Below, one piece after another: positions 1 through 6,416 of a stretch of DNA of 10,150 bases. Position numbers and translations under genes: made by a program. The number at the start of each line of letters is the position of its first letter. Position 1 is the first letter of the stretch. The notes below the pieces were generated by a model. It did not search any database. It saw only the letters and a program-made list of their open reading frames with translations, and was not told the DNA's origin. Source of the stretch: Caulobacteraceae bacterium (GTDB taxonomy: Bacteria > Pseudomonadota > Alphaproteobacteria > Caulobacterales > Caulobacteraceae); assembly GCA_025351125.1 (NCBI GenBank), contig JANXWN010000427.1, positions 1-10,150 of the forward strand, read 5' to 3'.

Positions 1-186
1 CATCAAGCTTTCGAGGCTTTCGCCTTTCGCGACGCGCGCTTTGAATTCGTCGGTCTTGCCGCGTAGGGCGTCGTCGCTCAGCGCCGCCATTTGCGGCTCC
101 AAAGCGGTGATGCCGGACACTTTTGACAGCATCGCCTTGACCTTGCGGTCGTTGGAGGAGCCGATAAGTTTTCTAAGATTAAGCAT
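1..186 (-). CDS. secA: SecA preprotein translocase ATPase, N-terminal fragment (runs off the left edge)
   Basis: SecA is the cytoplasmic ATPase motor that drives unfolded preproteins through SecYEG. Only the first 62 codons are present, read leftwards from the ATG at 184-186. The translated start begins MLNLRKLIGSSNDRKVKAML, followed by an ALEPQMAALSDDALRGKTDEF-like stretch. Both match the conserved SecA N-terminus: the S-N-D-R-K helix, then ALEP, then LSD..LR.KT.EF. The DEAD motor, preprotein cross-linking and C-terminal zinc regions lie outside the window, so intactness cannot be judged. No good Shine-Dalgarno precedes the ATG; the bases just upstream are C-rich on the coding strand. The gene is divergent from the TonB-dependent receptor. 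Identification rests on recognising the family N-terminus, and I am confident despite the short length. Confidence 0.9.
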   Translation of the reverse strand, partial: MLNLRKLIGSSNDRKVKAMLSKVSGITALEPQMAALSDDALRGKTDEFKARVAKGESLESLM

Positions 187-215
187 GGGGGCGGGGACGT
201 CCGGGTTAAGCGTGC

Positions 216-244
216 GACTTAGGGAGCGGCGTCCCCGAAGTCAA
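216..244 (-). promoter_or_regulatory. Candidate sigma-70-type promoter for secA
   Basis: On the minus strand, TTGACT (239-244) is a 5-of-6 match to the -35 consensus. It is followed after 17 bases by TAAGTC (216-221), a poor -10 element. The position, about 30 bases upstream of the secA ATG, is suitable. The -10 is weak enough that this is only a candidate. Confidence 0.3.
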
Positions 245-356
245 CGCGACGGCAAAAAAGCCACACCCCCGCGACACTTACGCCGCAAGCACCCGGTTCG
301 ACTTGACGACGATGGCGCATTGGGTGAGATCACAGAGTTGTACGGCGGCAAAAGCT

Positions 357-363
357 AAAGGGG
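357..363 (+). promoter_or_regulatory. Shine-Dalgarno of the TonB-dependent receptor
   Basis: The purine run AAAGGGG ends seven bases before the ATG at 371. It supports that start over downstream ATGs, which would remove the signal peptide. Confidence 0.6.
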
Positions 364-370
364 ATAGCCG

Positions 371-2791
371 ATGTTTACTCTACATTCGTCGAACGGTTTG
401 GGATCGCATCGCGCCGGCGTTATTCATCCGGTCCCGCTGGCGGTGCTCATGGCCTCGACCATGCTGGCCGGCACGCCGGTTCTGGCCGCCGACACATCCG
501 GCGCCGTTAGAGACGTCGGCGAGATCGTCGTCACCGCCTCGAAGCGCGAGGAAAACATCCAAAAAGTGGCCATGAGCATTCAGGCCATCGACAGCAAAAA
601 ACTCAATCAGCTCAACATCACGAACTTTCAGGATTATGTGAAGTTCATGCCCAGCGTGGGTTTCCAGACTTTCGCGCCCAGTCAAACCACCATCTATATG
701 CGCGGCGTCGTCGACGGCGGCAACGCCAACCATTCCGGTCCGTTGCCGAGCGTCGGCGCCTATCTGGACGAACAGCCGATCACCACGATCGGCGGCACGC
801 TGGATATCCACGTTTATGACATCGCCCGCGTGGAGGTGCTGCCGGGACCGCAGGGCACCCTTTATGGCGCCAGCTCCGAATCGGGCACGATTCGCATCAT
901 CACCAACAAACCTAGTACTGCGGCCTTCGCCGGGGCGCTCAACGTCGAAGGCAACACCGTGGCCCACGGCGGTCAAGGTTATGTCGCCGAAGGCTTTGTC
1001 AATATTCCGCTAAGTTCGCGGGCGGCGATTCGGATCGTGGCCTTCGACGAGCACGATGCCGGCTACATCGATAACGTTCCGGGCGCGCGCCCGTTCAAAC
1101 TGACCGGCACAACCTTGAGCAACGCCGCGCTCGTCAAGAACAATTTCAATCATGTTGACACCTATGGCGGCCGCGCCGCGCTGAAGTTCGACCTCAACGA
1201 CAACTGGACGATCATGCCGACGGTCGTCGCGCAGGACACGCGGGCGCCCGGCGTGTTCGGCTTCCAGCCCTCGGTCGGCGATCTGCAAGTGCAGCGCTTC
1301 CAACCCGACGCCTACCACGATCGCTGGGTTCAGGCCGCGTTGAATATTACCGGCAAGATCGGCAGATTTGATCTCACCTATTCCGGCGGTTACTTCAACC
1401 GCAAAGTCAATTCGCTTTCCGACTATACCGACTACACGGTTGCTTATGAACAGATAGGATCGGGTACGGGTTGGGTCGACAACGCCGGCGCGCTTTTGCC
1501 GACTCCGGTGCAGGAAATCGTCGGACGCGACCGGTTCGAGAAGGGCAGCAACGAATTGCGCATCGCATCGCCGGCGACCGACCGTCTGCGTTTCATCGCC
1601 GGCGTGTTCCAAGAGCGCCAAAGTCATTGGATCATCCAGGACTATTTGATCCAGGGTCTGGGCTCGCAGGTGTCGGTGCCGGGGTGGCCCCAGACGATTT
1701 GGCTGACCGACCAAGATCGGGTGGACCGCGACGAGGCCGTATTCGCGGAAGCGTCGTTTGACGTCACCAGCCACCTAACGCTCACCGGCGGCATACGAGG
1801 CTATCACTATAAAAATTCGCTCTACGGTTTTTACGGCTTTTCCGCGGCGGAGAGTTCTCATACCGGTGTGGCGATCTGTATTCCCGGCCTGACATTCAGA
1901 GACGCGCCTTGCGTCGATTTAAATAAAACCGTCAGCGCTTCAGGAGAAACCCATAAAATTAACCTCAATTATAAAATTGATGACAATAAATTGGTTTATT
2001 TCACTTATTCAACGGGCTATCGGTCCGGTGGAGTGAACCGTAACGGTGGTGGATTGCTTCCGCCGTATCAGGCAGATCACCTCGATAACTTCGAGATTGG
2101 TTGGAAGACCAGTTGGCTCGATCATACGCTGCATTTCAACGGCGCCATCTACGACGAGGAATGGCACAAGTTTCAGTTTTCTTTTCTTGGCATTAACAGC
2201 CTGACCATAGTCGAAAATGCACCCCAGGCGCGGATCCAGGGCCTGGAGACCAGTTTTGATTGGCGGGCGACGCCGCAATTCACGCTGTCCGGCGGGGGCG
2301 CTTACAACCATGCCGTTTTGACTACGAACTTCTGCGGCGCCGATCCTGTGACCGGCGTGGTTATTCCCACCTGTACCGATAGCGCCGCCCAGGCGATACA
2401 TGGGCAACAGCTTCCCTATACGCCGAAATTCAAGGGCAACGTGACGGCTCGCTACGCCTTCGAGATGGCCGGATGGAACGCCCATGTCCAAGGCTCGCTG
2501 TTTTATCAGACTATGGCCTTCGCGGCTCTGCGCACCGCAGATAACGCCAGTTTGGGGACGATGCCCGGTTACGCGACCGCCGATTTCAGCGCTGGCGTCG
2601 AGCACGACAAAACCTCCATCGAAGTGTTCATCAAGAACGCCTTCGACGAGCGCGGCCAGCAAAATCGCTACACGCCTTGCACGACCAACGTTTGCGCGCC
2701 GGTGGGAGGTTACGCAACTGTAGCGCCGGCAATCTATGTCGTGCCGATTCAACCCCTGACCGTCGGCGTCAAGGTCGGGCAAAAGTTTTAA
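371..2791 (+). CDS. TonB-dependent outer-membrane receptor
   Basis: This is a 22-stranded-barrel type receptor that would import a scarce ligand (iron chelate, oligosaccharide or other natural product) across the outer membrane using TonB-ExbBD energy. At 806 residues it has the usual family length. Residues 1-40 are a signal peptide with a long, polar N-region, ending in a VLAA cleavage site. A TonB-box-like EIVVTASK lies at 51-58. The plug domain follows (about 60-180), with YMRGV, VEVLPGPQGTLYGASSE and TIRIITNKP blocks. The barrel ends in a C-terminal Phe (VGVKVGQKF), the BAM recognition signal. The usual Arg of the VEVLRGPQGTL block is Pro158 here; I recall this variant from other receptors of this class but cannot verify it. 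All six cysteines fall in three close pairs (503/514, 655/668, 770/775), suggesting loop disulfides. A sulfotransferase gene follows 21 bases downstream. The substrate cannot be read from the sequence. Confidence 0.95.
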   Translation: MFTLHSSNGLGSHRAGVIHPVPLAVLMASTMLAGTPVLAADTSGAVRDVGEIVVTASKREENIQKVAMSIQAIDSKKLNQLNITNFQDYVKFMPSVGFQTFAPSQTTIYMRGVVDGGNANHSGPLPSVGAYLDEQPITTIGGTLDIHVYDIARVEVLPGPQGTLYGASSESGTIRIITNKPSTAAFAGALNVEGNTVAHGGQGYVAEGFVNIPLSSRAAIRIVAFDEHDAGYIDNVPGARPFKLTGTTLSNAALVKNNFNHVDTYGGRAALKFDLNDNWTIMPTVVAQDTRAPGVFGFQPSVGDLQVQRFQPDAYHDRWVQAALNITGKIGRFDLTYSGGYFNRKVNSLSDYTDYTVAYEQIGSGTGWVDNAGALLPTPVQEIVGRDRFEKGSNELRIASPATDRLRFIAGVFQERQSHWIIQDYLIQGLGSQVSVPGWPQTIWLTDQDRVDRDEAVFAEASFDVTSHLTLTGGIRGYHYKNSLYGFYGFSAAESSHTGVAICIPGLTFRDAPCVDLNKTVSASGETHKINLNYKIDDNKLVYFTYSTGYRSGGVNRNGGGLLPPYQADHLDNFEIGWKTSWLDHTLHFNGAIYDEEWHKFQFSFLGINSLTIVENAPQARIQGLETSFDWRATPQFTLSGGGAYNHAVLTTNFCGADPVTGVVIPTCTDSAAQAIHGQQLPYTPKFKGNVTARYAFEMAGWNAHVQGSLFYQTMAFAALRTADNASLGTMPGYATADFSAGVEHDKTSIEVFIKNAFDERGQQNRYTPCTTNVCAPVGGYATVAPAIYVVPIQPLTVGVKVGQKF

Positions 2792-2812
2792 GATACGTGC
2801 TAGACGGCGGGG

Positions 2813-4804
2813 ATGACTGACGCGCCCGCCGGATCGCTCGACGCCGCCTTGGCGCACGCGGCCAAACTTATGCTCACGCGTCCGGACCTCGCGCAGCAGC
2901 AGGCCGTCGCGATCCTGGAGGCCGTACCGGGCGACCCGCGCGCGCTGTTGGTGTTGGGGATGGCGCGGCGGCGGACGGGCGATTTGGCCGGCGCGCGTGC
3001 TGTGTTGGAGCCTTTGGCGGAGACTCAGCCGCGTTCGGCGCAAACCCACTATGAATGGGGCATGGTGCTGGCATCGGAAGGCGAGGCCGCCGCGGCGATC
3101 ACCGCTTTTCGTCACGCCGTCGATCTGAAACGCGCCATGCCGGAGGCTTGGCGGGCGCTCGGCGACCAATTGACGGCGCTCGGCGATAAGGCGGCGGCGG
3201 ACCGCGCGTACGCGGAGCAAATTCGCGCCTCGGTCAACGATCCGCGATTGCTGGCGGCGGCCGACGCCATGTGTGACGACAAACTCGACGTCGCCGAGCA
3301 CCTGTTGCGCGATCATTTGCGCGCTCACCCCAGCGACGTCGCGGCAATGCGTATGTTGGCCGAAACCGGCACGCGACTGGGGCGATACGGCGACGCGGAG
3401 GCTCTGCTGACGCAGTGTCTGGCGCTCTCTCCCAGTTTCAGCGGCGCCCGATATAACCTCGCCATCGTGCTCTATCGTCAGCAAAAGGCGGCGGAGGCGA
3501 TTGCGCAGGTCGAGCCCTTGCTCGTCGACGACGCGCAAGAACCGAACTATCGCAATCTTCTGGCCGCCTGTTGTGGATTGGTCGGTGAGTATCAGCGGGC
3601 GATTGCGCTGTACGAAGGCGTGCTTGCGGATTTTCCCAACCAGCCGAAGGTCTGGCTGAGCTACGGTCACGCCCTAAAAACCGCCGGTCGGCGCGCGGAC
3701 GCGGTCGCCGCCTACGACCGCTGCATGGCCATGGCGCCGCGGTTGGGCGAAACCTATTGGAGCCTCGCCAACCTCAAAACCGTGCCGTTTTCACGCCGGC
3801 AAACCTTGGCGATGGAGGCTCTGCTGGCGGGCGAGGCGCTCGACGCCGAAGATCAATGGCATTTGCACTATGCGCTGGGCAAGGCGTTGGAGGACGCCGG
3901 CGACTTTGACGCCTCGTTCGAGCACTACGCCAAGGGCGCGCGGTTGCGGCGCGCGGAATTACCCTACGACGTGGATCAGACGACGGCGCAAATGCGCCGG
4001 GCGAAGGCACTATTCACACCGGCGTTTTTCGTGGACCGGTCGAGTGGGGGTTCGGACGCGCCGGATCCGATCTTCATCGTCGGCCTGCCGCGGTCCGGTT
4101 CGACCTTGATTGAACAAATCCTTGCGAGCCATTCCGCCGTCGAAGGCACGATGGAATTGCCTGAAATCGTCTCCATCGCCCGGGATCTTGGGCGCCAAGA
4201 CGGCAAAGGCGGGGCCTATCCCGAAGCGCTCGCCAGGCTTTCCCCATCGGAGCGGACCGCCTTGGGCGACGACTTCCTCGCCCGTACGCGCATTCAACGC
4301 AAGCTGGGTCGACCGTTCTTCATCGATAAAATGCCGAATAATTTCCAGCACATCGGGCTGATTAAGTTGATCCTGCCGAACGCAAAGATCATCGATGCGC
4401 GTCGTCATCCCATGGCAGCGTGCTTTTCCGCCTTCAAACAGCACTTCGCGCGCGGACAGGCTTTTTCCTACGATCTGGGCGATCTGGGCCGGTATTACGC
4501 CGACTATGTCGAGATCATGAGCCATTATGACGCCGTCATGCCCGGCGCGGTACATCGCGTGATCTACGAAGACCTCGTTGACGATACCGAGGCCGAAGTT
4601 CACCGGCTGCTGGCTTATTGCGGTCTGCCGTTCGAGGACGGCTGTCTGCGCTTTTACGACAACGACCGCGCGGTGCGCACCGCCAGTTCCGAACAAGTCC
4701 GCAAGCCGATTTTTCGCGAGGGTCTGGATCAATGGCGCCATTACGCGCCATGGTTGCAACCGCTCCGAGACGCATTGGGGCCAACGTTGCAGACCTGGCG
4801 ATAA
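2813..4804 (+). CDS. TPR-repeat protein with C-terminal PAPS-dependent sulfotransferase domain
   Basis: This 663-residue protein would transfer a sulfuryl group from PAPS to an unknown acceptor. Residues about 1-340 are tetratricopeptide repeats; clear units include those starting near DPRALLVLGMARRRTGD, SAQTHYEWGMVLASEGE, MPEAWRALGDQLTALGD and PKVWLSYGHALKTAGR. The sulfotransferase domain occupies about 415-663. Its 5'-phosphosulfate loop is DPIFIVGLPRSGSTLIEQ (418-435), and the 3'-phosphate site is R531-x7-S539 in DARRHPMAACFSAF, the spacing seen in tyrosylprotein sulfotransferases. E444 or E448 in EGTMELPE could be the catalytic base. No signal peptide or membrane segment is seen, so it is probably cytoplasmic. 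The ATG at 2813 has a GGCGGGG directly against it, too close for an ideal ribosome site, and translation may be coupled to the receptor 21 bases upstream. The acceptor could be a peptide tyrosine, a glycan or a small molecule. Family assignment is firm; substrate is unknown. Confidence 0.92.
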   Translation: MTDAPAGSLDAALAHAAKLMLTRPDLAQQQAVAILEAVPGDPRALLVLGMARRRTGDLAGARAVLEPLAETQPRSAQTHYEWGMVLASEGEAAAAITAFRHAVDLKRAMPEAWRALGDQLTALGDKAAADRAYAEQIRASVNDPRLLAAADAMCDDKLDVAEHLLRDHLRAHPSDVAAMRMLAETGTRLGRYGDAEALLTQCLALSPSFSGARYNLAIVLYRQQKAAEAIAQVEPLLVDDAQEPNYRNLLAACCGLVGEYQRAIALYEGVLADFPNQPKVWLSYGHALKTAGRRADAVAAYDRCMAMAPRLGETYWSLANLKTVPFSRRQTLAMEALLAGEALDAEDQWHLHYALGKALEDAGDFDASFEHYAKGARLRRAELPYDVDQTTAQMRRAKALFTPAFFVDRSSGGSDAPDPIFIVGLPRSGSTLIEQILASHSAVEGTMELPEIVSIARDLGRQDGKGGAYPEALARLSPSERTALGDDFLARTRIQRKLGRPFFIDKMPNNFQHIGLIKLILPNAKIIDARRHPMAACFSAFKQHFARGQAFSYDLGDLGRYYADYVEIMSHYDAVMPGAVHRVIYEDLVDDTEAEVHRLLAYCGLPFEDGCLRFYDNDRAVRTASSEQVRKPIFREGLDQWRHYAPWLQPLRDALGPTLQTWR

Positions 4805-4818
4805 GCCGTCGCTACGGC
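4805..4818 (+). terminator. Small hairpin after the sulfotransferase stop; possible weak terminator
   Basis: GCCGT-CGCT-ACGGC forms a 5-bp stem with a 4-base loop starting at the base after the TAA stop. It sits in the 64-base convergent gap with the acrylyl-CoA reductase gene. No T-run follows, so it is not a canonical intrinsic terminator. Confidence 0.25.
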
Positions 4819-4868
4819 ATTGCCCGCCGCTTAACCGCCCCCTTACCGCTCCAGGCTGCGCGGCTGGA

Positions 4869-5861
4869 CTAACCGTTAACGTTCACCACCACCCGGCCCC
4901 TTATTTGTCCGGCGATGATGGCGGGTCCCAGGGCGGCGACATCGTTTAGCGTCGCCGAAACGACCATCGTTTCCAGTTTGGCCAAATCCAGATCTCTCGC
5001 TAAGCGTGCCCAGGCTTCGACCCGATCGGCCTTTGGCCGCATGACCGAATCGATGCCGGCCAGAGTGATCCCGCGCAGGATGAACGGGGCCACCGATCCG
5101 GGAAGGTCCAGGCCTTGCGCCAAGCCGCAAGCCGCCACGAGGCCGCCATATCGTGTCTGCCCCAAAACATTCACTAAGGTGTGCGATCCCACGGAATCGA
5201 TCGCTCCCGCCCAACGTTCCTTACCCAACGGGCGGCCCGGCGTCGCAAGTTCGGAACGGTCGATGATCTCCGTAGCCCCCAAGGCGGTTAAGTAGGGTGT
5301 TTGGGTTTGTTTCCGGCCGGTGGAAGCGATCACGCGATAACCCAGCTTCGATAGCAGGGCGACGGCGACGCTGCCAACGCCGCCGGCCGCGCCGGTCACC
5401 AGCACGTCGCCCTTGGCCGGCGTCACGCCGCCGCGCTCGAGAGCGATCACGCACAGCATGGCGGTGTAGCCCGCCGTGCCAATGGCCATGGCTTGTTTGT
5501 TGGATATCCCCGCGGGAAGCTTAACCAGCCAATCGCCTTTGACCCGCGCCTTTTGCGCCAAGCCGCCATGGTGACTTTCGCCCACGCCCCAGCCGTTCAG
5601 CACTACCCTTTCGCCGGGCGCGAACTGTGGGTTGGACGAGGTTTCGACCACGCCTGAAAAATCGATTCCGGGTGTTAAGGGGAAAACCCGCACGATCCCG
5701 GCGCCGGTCAGCGCCAAACCGTCTTTGTAATTGACCGTCGAATAGTCAATCCGAACGGTGACATCACCGTCCATCAGGTCGTGGTCATGCAAATCGACGA
5801 CACGCGCCTCCTGCCCGGCGTCCGTCTTGGAAATGCGCAGGGCGCGAAACGTCTCGGTCAT
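4869..5861 (-). CDS. acuI: Acrylyl-CoA reductase (AcuI/YhdH family), zinc-free MDR oxidoreductase
   Basis: Members of this medium-chain dehydrogenase/reductase branch reduce acrylyl-CoA to propionyl-CoA with NADPH in the cytoplasm, either as detoxification or in 3-hydroxypropionate/acrylate assimilation. From the ATG at 5861 the protein has 330 residues, the normal AcuI/YhdH size. Visible landmarks are MTETFRALRI at the start, VNYKDGLALTG (43-53), PGIDFSGVV (64-72), GWGVGESHHGG (90-100) and the Rossmann loop GAAGGVGS (157-164). S180-T-G-R183-K184 is suited to the NADP 2'-phosphate, and AIDSVGS lies at 220-226. The catalytic and structural zinc ligands of alcohol dehydrogenases are absent. An in-frame TTG at 5870 touches the upstream stop and would add three residues (MID). 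I prefer the ATG because family proteins start near this point; neither has a clear Shine-Dalgarno. The lipoprotein gene ends only 9 bases upstream, so coupled translation is likely. The exact substrate is inferred from the family. Confidence 0.88.
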   Translation of the reverse strand: MTETFRALRISKTDAGQEARVVDLHDHDLMDGDVTVRIDYSTVNYKDGLALTGAGIVRVFPLTPGIDFSGVVETSSNPQFAPGERVVLNGWGVGESHHGGLAQKARVKGDWLVKLPAGISNKQAMAIGTAGYTAMLCVIALERGGVTPAKGDVLVTGAAGGVGSVAVALLSKLGYRVIASTGRKQTQTPYLTALGATEIIDRSELATPGRPLGKERWAGAIDSVGSHTLVNVLGQTRYGGLVAACGLAQGLDLPGSVAPFILRGITLAGIDSVMRPKADRVEAWARLARDLDLAKLETMVVSATLNDVAALGPAIIAGQIRGRVVVNVNG

Positions 5862-5870
5862 GTCAATCAA

Positions 5871-6416
5871 TCAGTTCAGCGTCACGGCGCGGGCGCCGCC
5901 GCGAGTTTCGACCCGGCGACTGACCGCAACAGCCTCGCCCTGGCCATCGATAGGCTTAGCGACGGTAATGACGAACCACGCACCGTCGGGCAGTCCGGAA
6001 AAGGAAAAGCGATTGGACTCGTCGCAGGTCGCCTTGCGCACGAAGCGCGCAAGATCGCCGCTGGGCGCCGAGGGCGAACGAGCGCGCACGATGGAGACCG
6101 GAACGGCGGCGGCGTTGGCCGAACCGTAGAGAATGACCATGCGGCGGCGGCTCCAGGGTGTTTCCGGCGTCAAGATAACGTCGCCGCCTTGGCACGAATA
6201 GCGACTGCCGCCGCCGCGAAAAGCGAGTGTGCCGAAAATGGCCGCGCCGCCCCCGCGTTGCGACCAAGCAAAGTCGCGGCCTTCGAAGCCGCCGGACTCG
6301 GTGGGCAATGGTTCAAAAACCGAAGAGACTTGCGCAGGGCGAAGCGTCGTTTCGGCGCAAGCCGACAAGAGCAGGCAGACAAGACCACCGGCGGCAAGGA
6401 GGGGGATCAACTTCAT
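5871..6416 (-). CDS. Small outer-membrane-type lipoprotein of unknown function
   Basis: This is a 181-residue secreted protein. Residues 1-19 are a lipoprotein signal peptide with the lipobox LSAC, so Cys20 should be lipidated. Ala21-Glu22 follow, with no Asp at +2, which favours transfer to the outer membrane. The mature part has a glycine-rich segment (56-78), then SCQGGDVILTPETPWSRRRM (74-93), and near the C-terminus RFSFSGLPDGAWFVITV (136-152). An F-x-F-x-x-L-P-x-G-x-W/Y-x-V pattern is typical of carboxypeptidase-regulatory/transthyretin-like beta-sandwich domains, so such a fold is likely. Cys75 and Cys131 could form a disulfide. I do not recognise a named gene. It lies between an acyl-CoA dehydrogenase gene (71 bases upstream) and the AcuI gene (almost touching), so it is probably cotranscribed with the latter, but nothing in it suggests an enzymatic role in acyl-CoA metabolism. 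Confidence 0.82.
   Translation of the reverse strand: MKLIPLLAAGGLVCLLLSACAETTLRPAQVSSVFEPLPTESGGFEGRDFAWSQRGGGAAIFGTLAFRGGGSRYSCQGGDVILTPETPWSRRRMVILYGSANAAAVPVSIVRARSPSAPSGDLARFVRKATCDESNRFSFSGLPDGAWFVITVAKPIDGQGEAVAVSRRVETRGGARAVTLN

Follow-up and report, generated by a model that had tools for sequence, protein, structure and literature searches.

TonB-dependent receptor genes adjoining TPR-sulfotransferase genes in Caulobacteraceae and other Pseudomonadota

The described systems that come closest to the gene pair studied here, a TonB-dependent receptor gene followed by the gene of a sulfotransferase with tetratricopeptide repeats (TPRs), are O-GlcNAc transferase and SPINDLY, the human tyrosylprotein sulfotransferases (TPSTs), the RaxST system and the methanobactin operons. 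O-GlcNAc transferase and SPINDLY are protein-modifying enzymes in which, as in ours, a TPR superhelix is fused to a transferase, but their catalytic domain is a glycosyltransferase and not a sulfotransferase. Human TPST1 and TPST2 are, in the published passages on which we draw, type II membrane proteins whose catalytic domain is luminal and which have no TPRs; the catalytic residues of TPST1 are R79, E100, K159 and S286, R285 is described as one of the two side chains that hold the -1 acid, and a TPST substrate is expected to be flexible where it is sulfated (passages of PMC5562738). RaxST of Xanthomonas oryzae sulfates Tyr41 of RaxX (passages of PMC6637879), and in this system (RaxX, RaxA, RaxB) a bacterial sulfotransferase gene adjoins the gene of its exported substrate; RaxX is the only case of bacterial protein tyrosine sulfation in the literature passages used. 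In methanobactin operons, according to the passages used of PMC3621798, the sulfotransferase MbnS belongs to PF00685 and occurs in two Methylocystis operons only, and MbnT is a TonB-dependent transporter. The pair analysed here lies on contig JANXWN010000427.1 of a Caulobacteraceae bacterium (assembly GCA_025351125.1), which we analysed as one stretch of 10,150 nucleotides (the window). The window is the complete contig, and its assembly is 83.8% complete, with 2.36 Mb in 480 contigs. Where close homologues of its proteins carry an organism name, most come from Caulobacteraceae.

The window enzyme, known here from sequence and model, differs from the human TPSTs in being soluble-looking and bacterial, in its TPR array and in the alanine before its catalytic serine. 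Likened to RaxST by description only, the window pair is set apart by the long TPR array and the TonB receptor partner; neither a RaxX-like precursor nor a RaxAB-like type I secretion gene was seen at the window locus, which is flanked by secA and acuI. With the methanobactin operons, as described in the passages used, the window unit shares the operon-like grouping of a sulfotransferase gene with that of a TonB-dependent transporter, but it consists of two genes and its sulfotransferase is of the PF13469 type with TPRs. No MbnA, MbnB or MbnC was found among the six window proteins scanned, MbnA-like short open reading frames (ORFs) not having been specifically searched. The parts are of known kinds; the Methylocystis methanobactin operons are a precedent for the combination of sulfotransferase and TonB transporter, and RaxST/RaxX is one for tyrosine sulfation in bacteria. 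Among the matches listed in a search of open-access PubMed Central (PMC) full text, with subscription journals and preprints outside the search, there was no description of a unit of TonB receptor and TPR-sulfotransferase. A term look-up in three TonB papers (PMC7142613, PMC11658791, PMC1790865) returned no mention of a sulfotransferase. The passages used of PMC10932419 report that, in Sutterella, one arylsulfate sulfotransferase gene has a TonB gene in its vicinity; this enzyme belongs to a different family, and operons are not noted.

The gene pair and its recurrence

A preliminary description had placed a receptor ORF and a sulfotransferase ORF on the same strand of the window, 21 bp apart, and the sequence confirms both positions:

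371..2791, + strand: TonB-dependent receptor gene, 806 aa (Pfam PF00593/PF07715, AlphaFold2 model)
2792..2812, + strand: intergenic gap of 21 bp, from the receptor stop to the sulfotransferase ATG
2813..4804, + strand: TPR-sulfotransferase gene, 663 aa (Pfam, AlphaFold2 model)

A scan of positions 150-5000 found neither a promoter-like nor a terminator-like match in the gap. Its single promoter-like match lies on the - strand at 1450 (shuffles average 1.1), and its two terminator-like matches, at 275 and 2455, are on the - strand as well. Judged by sequence, the receptor and TPR-sulfotransferase genes are a tight, conserved two-gene unit.

The pairing was counted from the enzyme side in two sets. 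The GTDB set comprises the best 80 of 591 loci matching an alignment of 20 TPR-sulfotransferases; the family set comprises 40 stretches at Sulfotransfer_3 matches (38 from same-family relatives, 2 from the window's own genome), which were top-listed and not random. An enzyme was counted if it scored at least 380 bits with a domain model built for this analysis, and two loci without a called enzyme gene (L139, L141) were left out. The sets overlap in at least one contig (L070 = L144). A TonB receptor directly adjoins the enzyme in 70 of 79 assessable genes of the GTDB set (2 more unassessable) and in 31 of 34 of the family set (2 unassessable). Gene order differs between the pairs: 61 enzyme-first, 5 receptor-first, 3 divergent and 1 convergent in the GTDB set; 21 receptor-first, 9 enzyme-first and 1 convergent in the family set. 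Spacing is below 60 bp in 49 of 102 pairs and at least 150 bp in 11. Cultured strains that carry the pair include Nitrospirillum amazonense (L149), Sphingomonas oligoaromativorans (L157) and Thermomonas haemolytica (L147). Among sulfotransferases scoring below 380 bits, only 1 of 7 assessable genes was paired with a receptor.

Gene offsets served as a control. In the GTDB set the receptor stands at offset +1 in 62/79 cases and at -1 in 8/73, and at offsets 4 to 6 on both sides in 0/294; for the family set plus the window, offsets 4 to 6 hold a receptor in 3/138. Within one whole genome (G019), a receptor lies on the same strand and no more than 2.5 kb away for 7 of 11 sulfotransferase matches, against a mean of 0.48 and a maximum of 5 under random placement (20,000 draws). 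The same count, weak matches included, gave 2/8 in genome G047 and 3/8 in G010. The receptor-sulfotransferase association, which the preliminary description had mentioned for alphaproteobacteria, exceeds chance by a wide margin in both the offset control and the whole-genome randomisation.

The pairing was also counted from the receptor side; in the class-wide, phylum-wide and gammaproteobacterial searches, scoring was limited to the two or three top candidates of each genome. Within the genus (16 genomes), all eight other receptor matches of at least 47% identity adjoin an enzyme; six of these pairs are receptor-first, one is enzyme-first and one divergent, the divergent one read from coordinates and the other seven confirmed on sequence. 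Excluding the window's own receptor, 4/4 matches are paired class-wide (289 genomes) and 13/14 phylum-wide (398 genomes; L255 is unpaired), with L242 and L243 counted in both sets. A profile search of 369 genomes of Gammaproteobacteria yielded 22 receptor matches, of which L260, L266 and L277 repeat receptors of the phylum set. An enzyme adjoins 15 of them and lies about 1.6 kb off on the same strand at L264; for the remaining six, no enzyme was found within the stretch examined (about 3 to 6 kb on each side).

Of the nine unpaired enzyme genes in the GTDB set, four form one array, that of L164 (5649-13134), an alphaproteobacterial metagenome-assembled genome with four tandem TPR-sulfotransferase genes and no adjoining TonB receptor. 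Tandem sulfotransferase genes, one high- and one low-scoring, also occur at L056, L072, L166, L112 and L119, the first three with a TonB receptor upstream.

Predicted fold and residues of the enzyme

Pfam assigns the enzyme to Sulfotransfer_3 (PF13469, E 8.8e-48) and to many TPR families, with PF00685 weaker. In the AlphaFold2 model (predicted local distance difference test score, pLDDT, 92) an N-terminal TPR superhelix precedes the catalytic domain:

2837..3958, + strand: TPR superhelix, residues ~9-382, helix pairs in the AlphaFold2 model
4067..4639, + strand: Sulfotransfer_3 domain core, residues 419-609
4082..4105, + strand: 5'-phosphosulfate loop GLPRSGST, residues 424-431; R427 corresponds to TPST1 R79 in the alignment
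4154..4156, + strand: E448, candidate catalytic base, 118/118; the R427-E448 spacing of 21 residues is as in TPST1 R79-E100
4328..4330, + strand: K506, corresponding to TPST1 K159, in 118/118 related enzymes
4403..4429, + strand: R531 and S539, 3'-phosphate binding, each in 118/118 related enzymes
4685..4687, + strand: S625 in SSEQV, corresponding to TPST1 S286, in 118/118 related enzymes

No signal peptide is visible by eye at the N-terminus, so the enzyme is probably cytosolic. The first Foldseek match of the TPR region is the TPR domain of O-GlcNAc transferase (1w3b); by sequence, engineered consensus TPRs come top and O-GlcNAc transferase next. The TPST1 fold match spans residues 414-663, and TPSTs match the catalytic domain better than the other sulfotransferases listed, which bears out the TPST likeness proposed in the preliminary description.

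That description had also reported an intact loop for 3'-phosphoadenosine 5'-phosphosulfate (PAPS) at 424-431 together with R531 and S539, and this reading stands. G424, R427, G429, S430, T431, R531 and S539 are kept in 118/118 related enzymes and P426 in 117; PAPS-binding and catalytic residues are thus retained where their loss would have spoken against a functional pairing. The HMMER alignment pairs G445, not E448, with TPST1 E100, and no counterpart of TPST1 R123 was placed in the window enzyme. On the evidence of the model, the enzyme has a TPST-like predicted fold with catalytic residues that look intact, E448 being a candidate by its spacing.

The receptor and a candidate site in loop 4

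Both Pfam matches of the receptor exceed their cut-offs (TonB_dep_Rec_b-barrel PF00593, 108 bits; Plug PF07715, 53 bits), and no NCBIfam model reached its own. Plug (residues 63-172) and barrel (22 strands by our count) are visible in the AlphaFold2 model (pLDDT 86, predicted template modelling score 0.84), whose closest fold is FyuA (4epa; template modelling score 0.88 by target length). By eye, the N-terminus is hydrophobic, with a putative signal peptide at ~1-40 and a TonB-box-like EIVVT at 51-55. Plug and barrel are common to FyuA-, FecA- and FptA-type receptors; a DYxDY motif in loop 4 sets the window receptor apart from them. It forms part of the first of two candidate tyrosine-sulfation sites:

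1421..1450, + strand: candidate site DYTDYTVAYE, residues 351-360, extracellular loop 4; Y352, Y355 and perhaps Y359
632..637, + strand: second, weaker candidate, DY at plug residues D88-Y89, in 30/35 sampled class A receptors and 5/5 of group P

Loop 4 comprises residues 352-380 and is surface-exposed according to the strand count on the model. In the receptors grouped as class A the motif has the consensus DYxDYSxxYD. D351, Y352 and Y355 are invariant in 87/87 rows of paired class A receptors, at least three of the rows being duplicates (L244/L083, L245/L078 and L144/L070); position 354 is D in 75 rows and E in 3, and position 359 is Y in 81. For these loops it is unusual to find three invariant residues in a span of five positions. 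Loop 7 has more invariant residues than loop 4 and carries residues common in TonB receptors, and loops 2, 3, 6 and 9 show scattered conserved residues.

DYx[DE]Y occurs in 120/120 receptor homologues among the matches listed and in 0/40 unpaired receptors, a set mostly of receptors not closely related to that of the window (30 top PF00593 matches of three genomes, 9 receptors from the window's own genome, and L255). The looser DY..Y was found anywhere in the sequence in 2 of these 40; at the aligned loop-4 place it is present in 35/35 sampled class A and 5/5 group P receptors and in 0/40 unpaired ones. The first 39 of the unpaired set have no sulfotransferase domain in their 1.5-kb flanks, and by coordinates the 30 from three genomes are all more than 2.5 kb away from any Sulfotransfer_3 match. 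At plug position 88-89, DY is not among the five commonest residue pairs of the unpaired receptors, which cover 23/40.

Some acidic-Tyr sites are conserved inside class C and inside class D; the one at the start of strand 6 was discounted, as it is present in the unpaired receptor L230 too. A class C receptor also occurs in the window's own genome (contig G000:C170, locus L050), where a second TonB receptor (1004-aa frame) is followed by a same-strand sulfotransferase gene. L158, L162, L163 and L250 are divergent head-to-head pairs, and in L158 and L250 the loop-4 motif reads DYxGY. L125 and L129, metagenome bins titled Klebsiella pneumoniae, hold class A pairs; their receptors group with those of other gammaproteobacterial bins, and the titles look mislabelled.

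Candidate substrates of the enzyme

Because the pairing recurs so often among related bacteria, the role of the enzyme is probably tied to the receptor, of which it may sulfate a surface loop. We infer protein sulfation by the enzyme, the receptor as its substrate, and the site and effect of the modification, as follows. The enzyme would take PAPS and sulfate the receptor precursor in the cytosol, while the precursor is unfolded and ahead of Sec export. Its TPR array would guide it to the protein substrate, and the likeliest targets would be Y352, Y355 and perhaps Y359 of DYxDYSxxYD. At the cell surface, the sulfotyrosines would then tune ligand binding by the receptor, as on animal chemokine receptors. 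PAPS is cytosolic; this, together with the lack of a visible signal peptide, the flexibility of TPST substrates and the fit of TPR arrays to a protein substrate, leads us to favour cytosolic sulfation.

That a TPR-guided protein-tyrosine sulfotransferase sulfates its partner receptor before export, with the loop-4 tyrosines as likeliest targets, is the reading we tentatively put first, as plausible though short of probable. A wider version is possible and slightly more doubtful, namely that many Pseudomonadota have TonB receptors in which a linked, dedicated TPR-sulfotransferase sulfates tyrosines of an extracellular loop, as a bacterial counterpart of the sulfotyrosines of chemokine receptors. 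If true, tyrosine sulfation would occur widely and would give nutrient uptake, as well as recognition by phages and bacteriocins, a further level of regulation, a post-translational control of outer-membrane transporters of which we found no earlier description. Even without receptor sulfation, the pairing assigns a dedicated partner enzyme to a conserved set of receptors and offers an approach to their ligands.

Several observations weigh against receptor sulfation at loop 4. The motif and the enzyme do not always go together: among the 22 gammaproteobacterial receptors, 11 have both motif and adjoining enzyme, four an enzyme without the motif (L261, L265, L272, L278), one the motif alone (L263, with no enzyme within about 6 kb) and six neither, L264 with its more distant enzyme being one of the six. 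The association gives a one-sided Fisher p of 0.015, or 0.043 if L264 is taken as paired, kinship being uncorrected. In class B, 14/17 receptors have DY..Y at the aligned place without the second acid; in lineages C, D and E the loop-4 motif is present in 0/9 despite a paired enzyme, and no common alternative site was found in these lineages. On the receptor tree the motif clade (support 0.995) contains 35 sampled tips, 34 of them paired and 33 with the motif. As nearly a one-clade trait, the motif may have no more than a structural or ligand-binding role. L264, L265 and L277 stand next to this clade without the motif; of these L265 is paired, so either the pairing predates the motif or these receptors have lost it.

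The enzyme also seems to have switched receptor lineage more than once, since class C, D and E enzymes group among class A enzymes (support of D only 0.25) and their receptors are placed elsewhere on the receptor tree than class A. Such switching favours a genuine link in function with TonB receptors at large and, at the same time, counts against loop 4 as the only target. Further points on the same side concern the genus, the enzyme and the genome. Genus matches below 47% identity are mixed: an enzyme adjoins the receptor on four contigs (G066:C44, G021:C77, G034:C30, G060:C35) and lies about 5 kb away on G055:C238, and none is listed on the contigs of three receptors (G070:C180, G067:C111, G046:C193). 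A624 precedes S625 where TPST1 has R285, for which reason we call the enzyme TPST-like and not a TPST; in the HMMER alignment to a tick TPST, the arginine before the catalytic serine falls in an insertion. Finally, adenosine 5'-phosphosulfate kinase was not found in the window's incomplete assembly, and it is present in 12/12 relatives that are at least 90% complete.

An unlikely but serious alternative has as substrate a secreted peptide, or a small metal-binding molecule, whose genes lie elsewhere in the genome and which the receptor re-imports after sulfation, in the manner proposed for MbnS and MbnT with Methylocystis methanobactins. It would account for several receptor lineages with one enzyme type, and it fits both the closest fold, FyuA being a siderophore receptor, and the presence of MbnS (PF00685) and MbnT in methanobactin operons as reported in the passages used of PMC3621798. 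The loci themselves argue otherwise. No third-gene family of at least 100 aa recurs in more than 8 of 102 pair loci, and of the 466 short ORFs of 20-99 aa that lie outside called genes and no more than 2.5 kb away, none does so in more than 4. This makes a peptide precursor or exporter encoded at the locus less likely; tailoring genes likewise do not recur, all of these having been searched at the loci only. The eight recurrent-neighbour representatives scanned (amidohydrolase, two major facilitator superfamily proteins, haloacid dehalogenase-type hydrolase, acyl-CoA dehydrogenase, amino-acid permease, aminotransferase and flavin adenine dinucleotide oxidoreductase) are catabolic or uptake types, which counts against a secreted molecule and mildly for a nutrient receptor. 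The long TPR arrays suggest a protein substrate, and the better match to TPSTs points the same way. Of the substrates suggested in the preliminary description, the receptor itself is favoured, in view of the candidate site, and a sulfated ligand or secreted peptide less so.

Somewhat more doubtful is the proposal that the substrate is a different exported protein, or else a surface glycan, with co-regulation as the only tie between enzyme and receptor. Receptor-less TPR-sulfotransferases do occur (the 9/79 of the GTDB set, the L164 array included), and genomes of the family Caulobacteraceae have up to 13 Sulfotransfer_3 matches each. Co-regulation, however, would not single out TonB receptors, several lineages of which are involved, and the pairing survives changes of gene order; no further partner gene recurs.

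Phages and bacteriocins commonly use TonB receptors to recognise the cell, several of the fold matches of the window receptor in the PDB are phage or bacteriocin complexes, and loop 4 is surface-exposed by the strand count. That sulfation of the receptor alters phage or bacteriocin recognition and not ligand uptake is nevertheless improbable, given that strict invariance of the motif is unlike the usual outcome of an arms race and that no defence gene was present among the scanned neighbour families. Chance adjacency or hitchhiking without function is close to refuted: linked genes are co-inherited, so that relatives do not count as independent cases, and there are repeated loci, but the offset control, the whole-genome randomisation, the different receptor lineages and the different gene orders all contradict it.

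The window genes around the pair are as follows:

1-186, - strand: start of secA, upstream of the receptor gene (SecA_DEAD match)
4869-5870, - strand: acuI, downstream of the sulfotransferase gene
5871-6416, - strand: 181-aa protein, matched by neither Pfam nor NCBIfam; its gene has acuI on one side and an acyl-CoA dehydrogenase gene on the other

Beyond the 181-aa gene, the acyl-CoA dehydrogenase gene and pheT follow downstream on the - strand. As the neighbours on both sides lie on the opposite strand, the receptor and sulfotransferase genes stand alone. The 181-aa protein has an N-terminal lipoprotein-like signal, as judged by eye.
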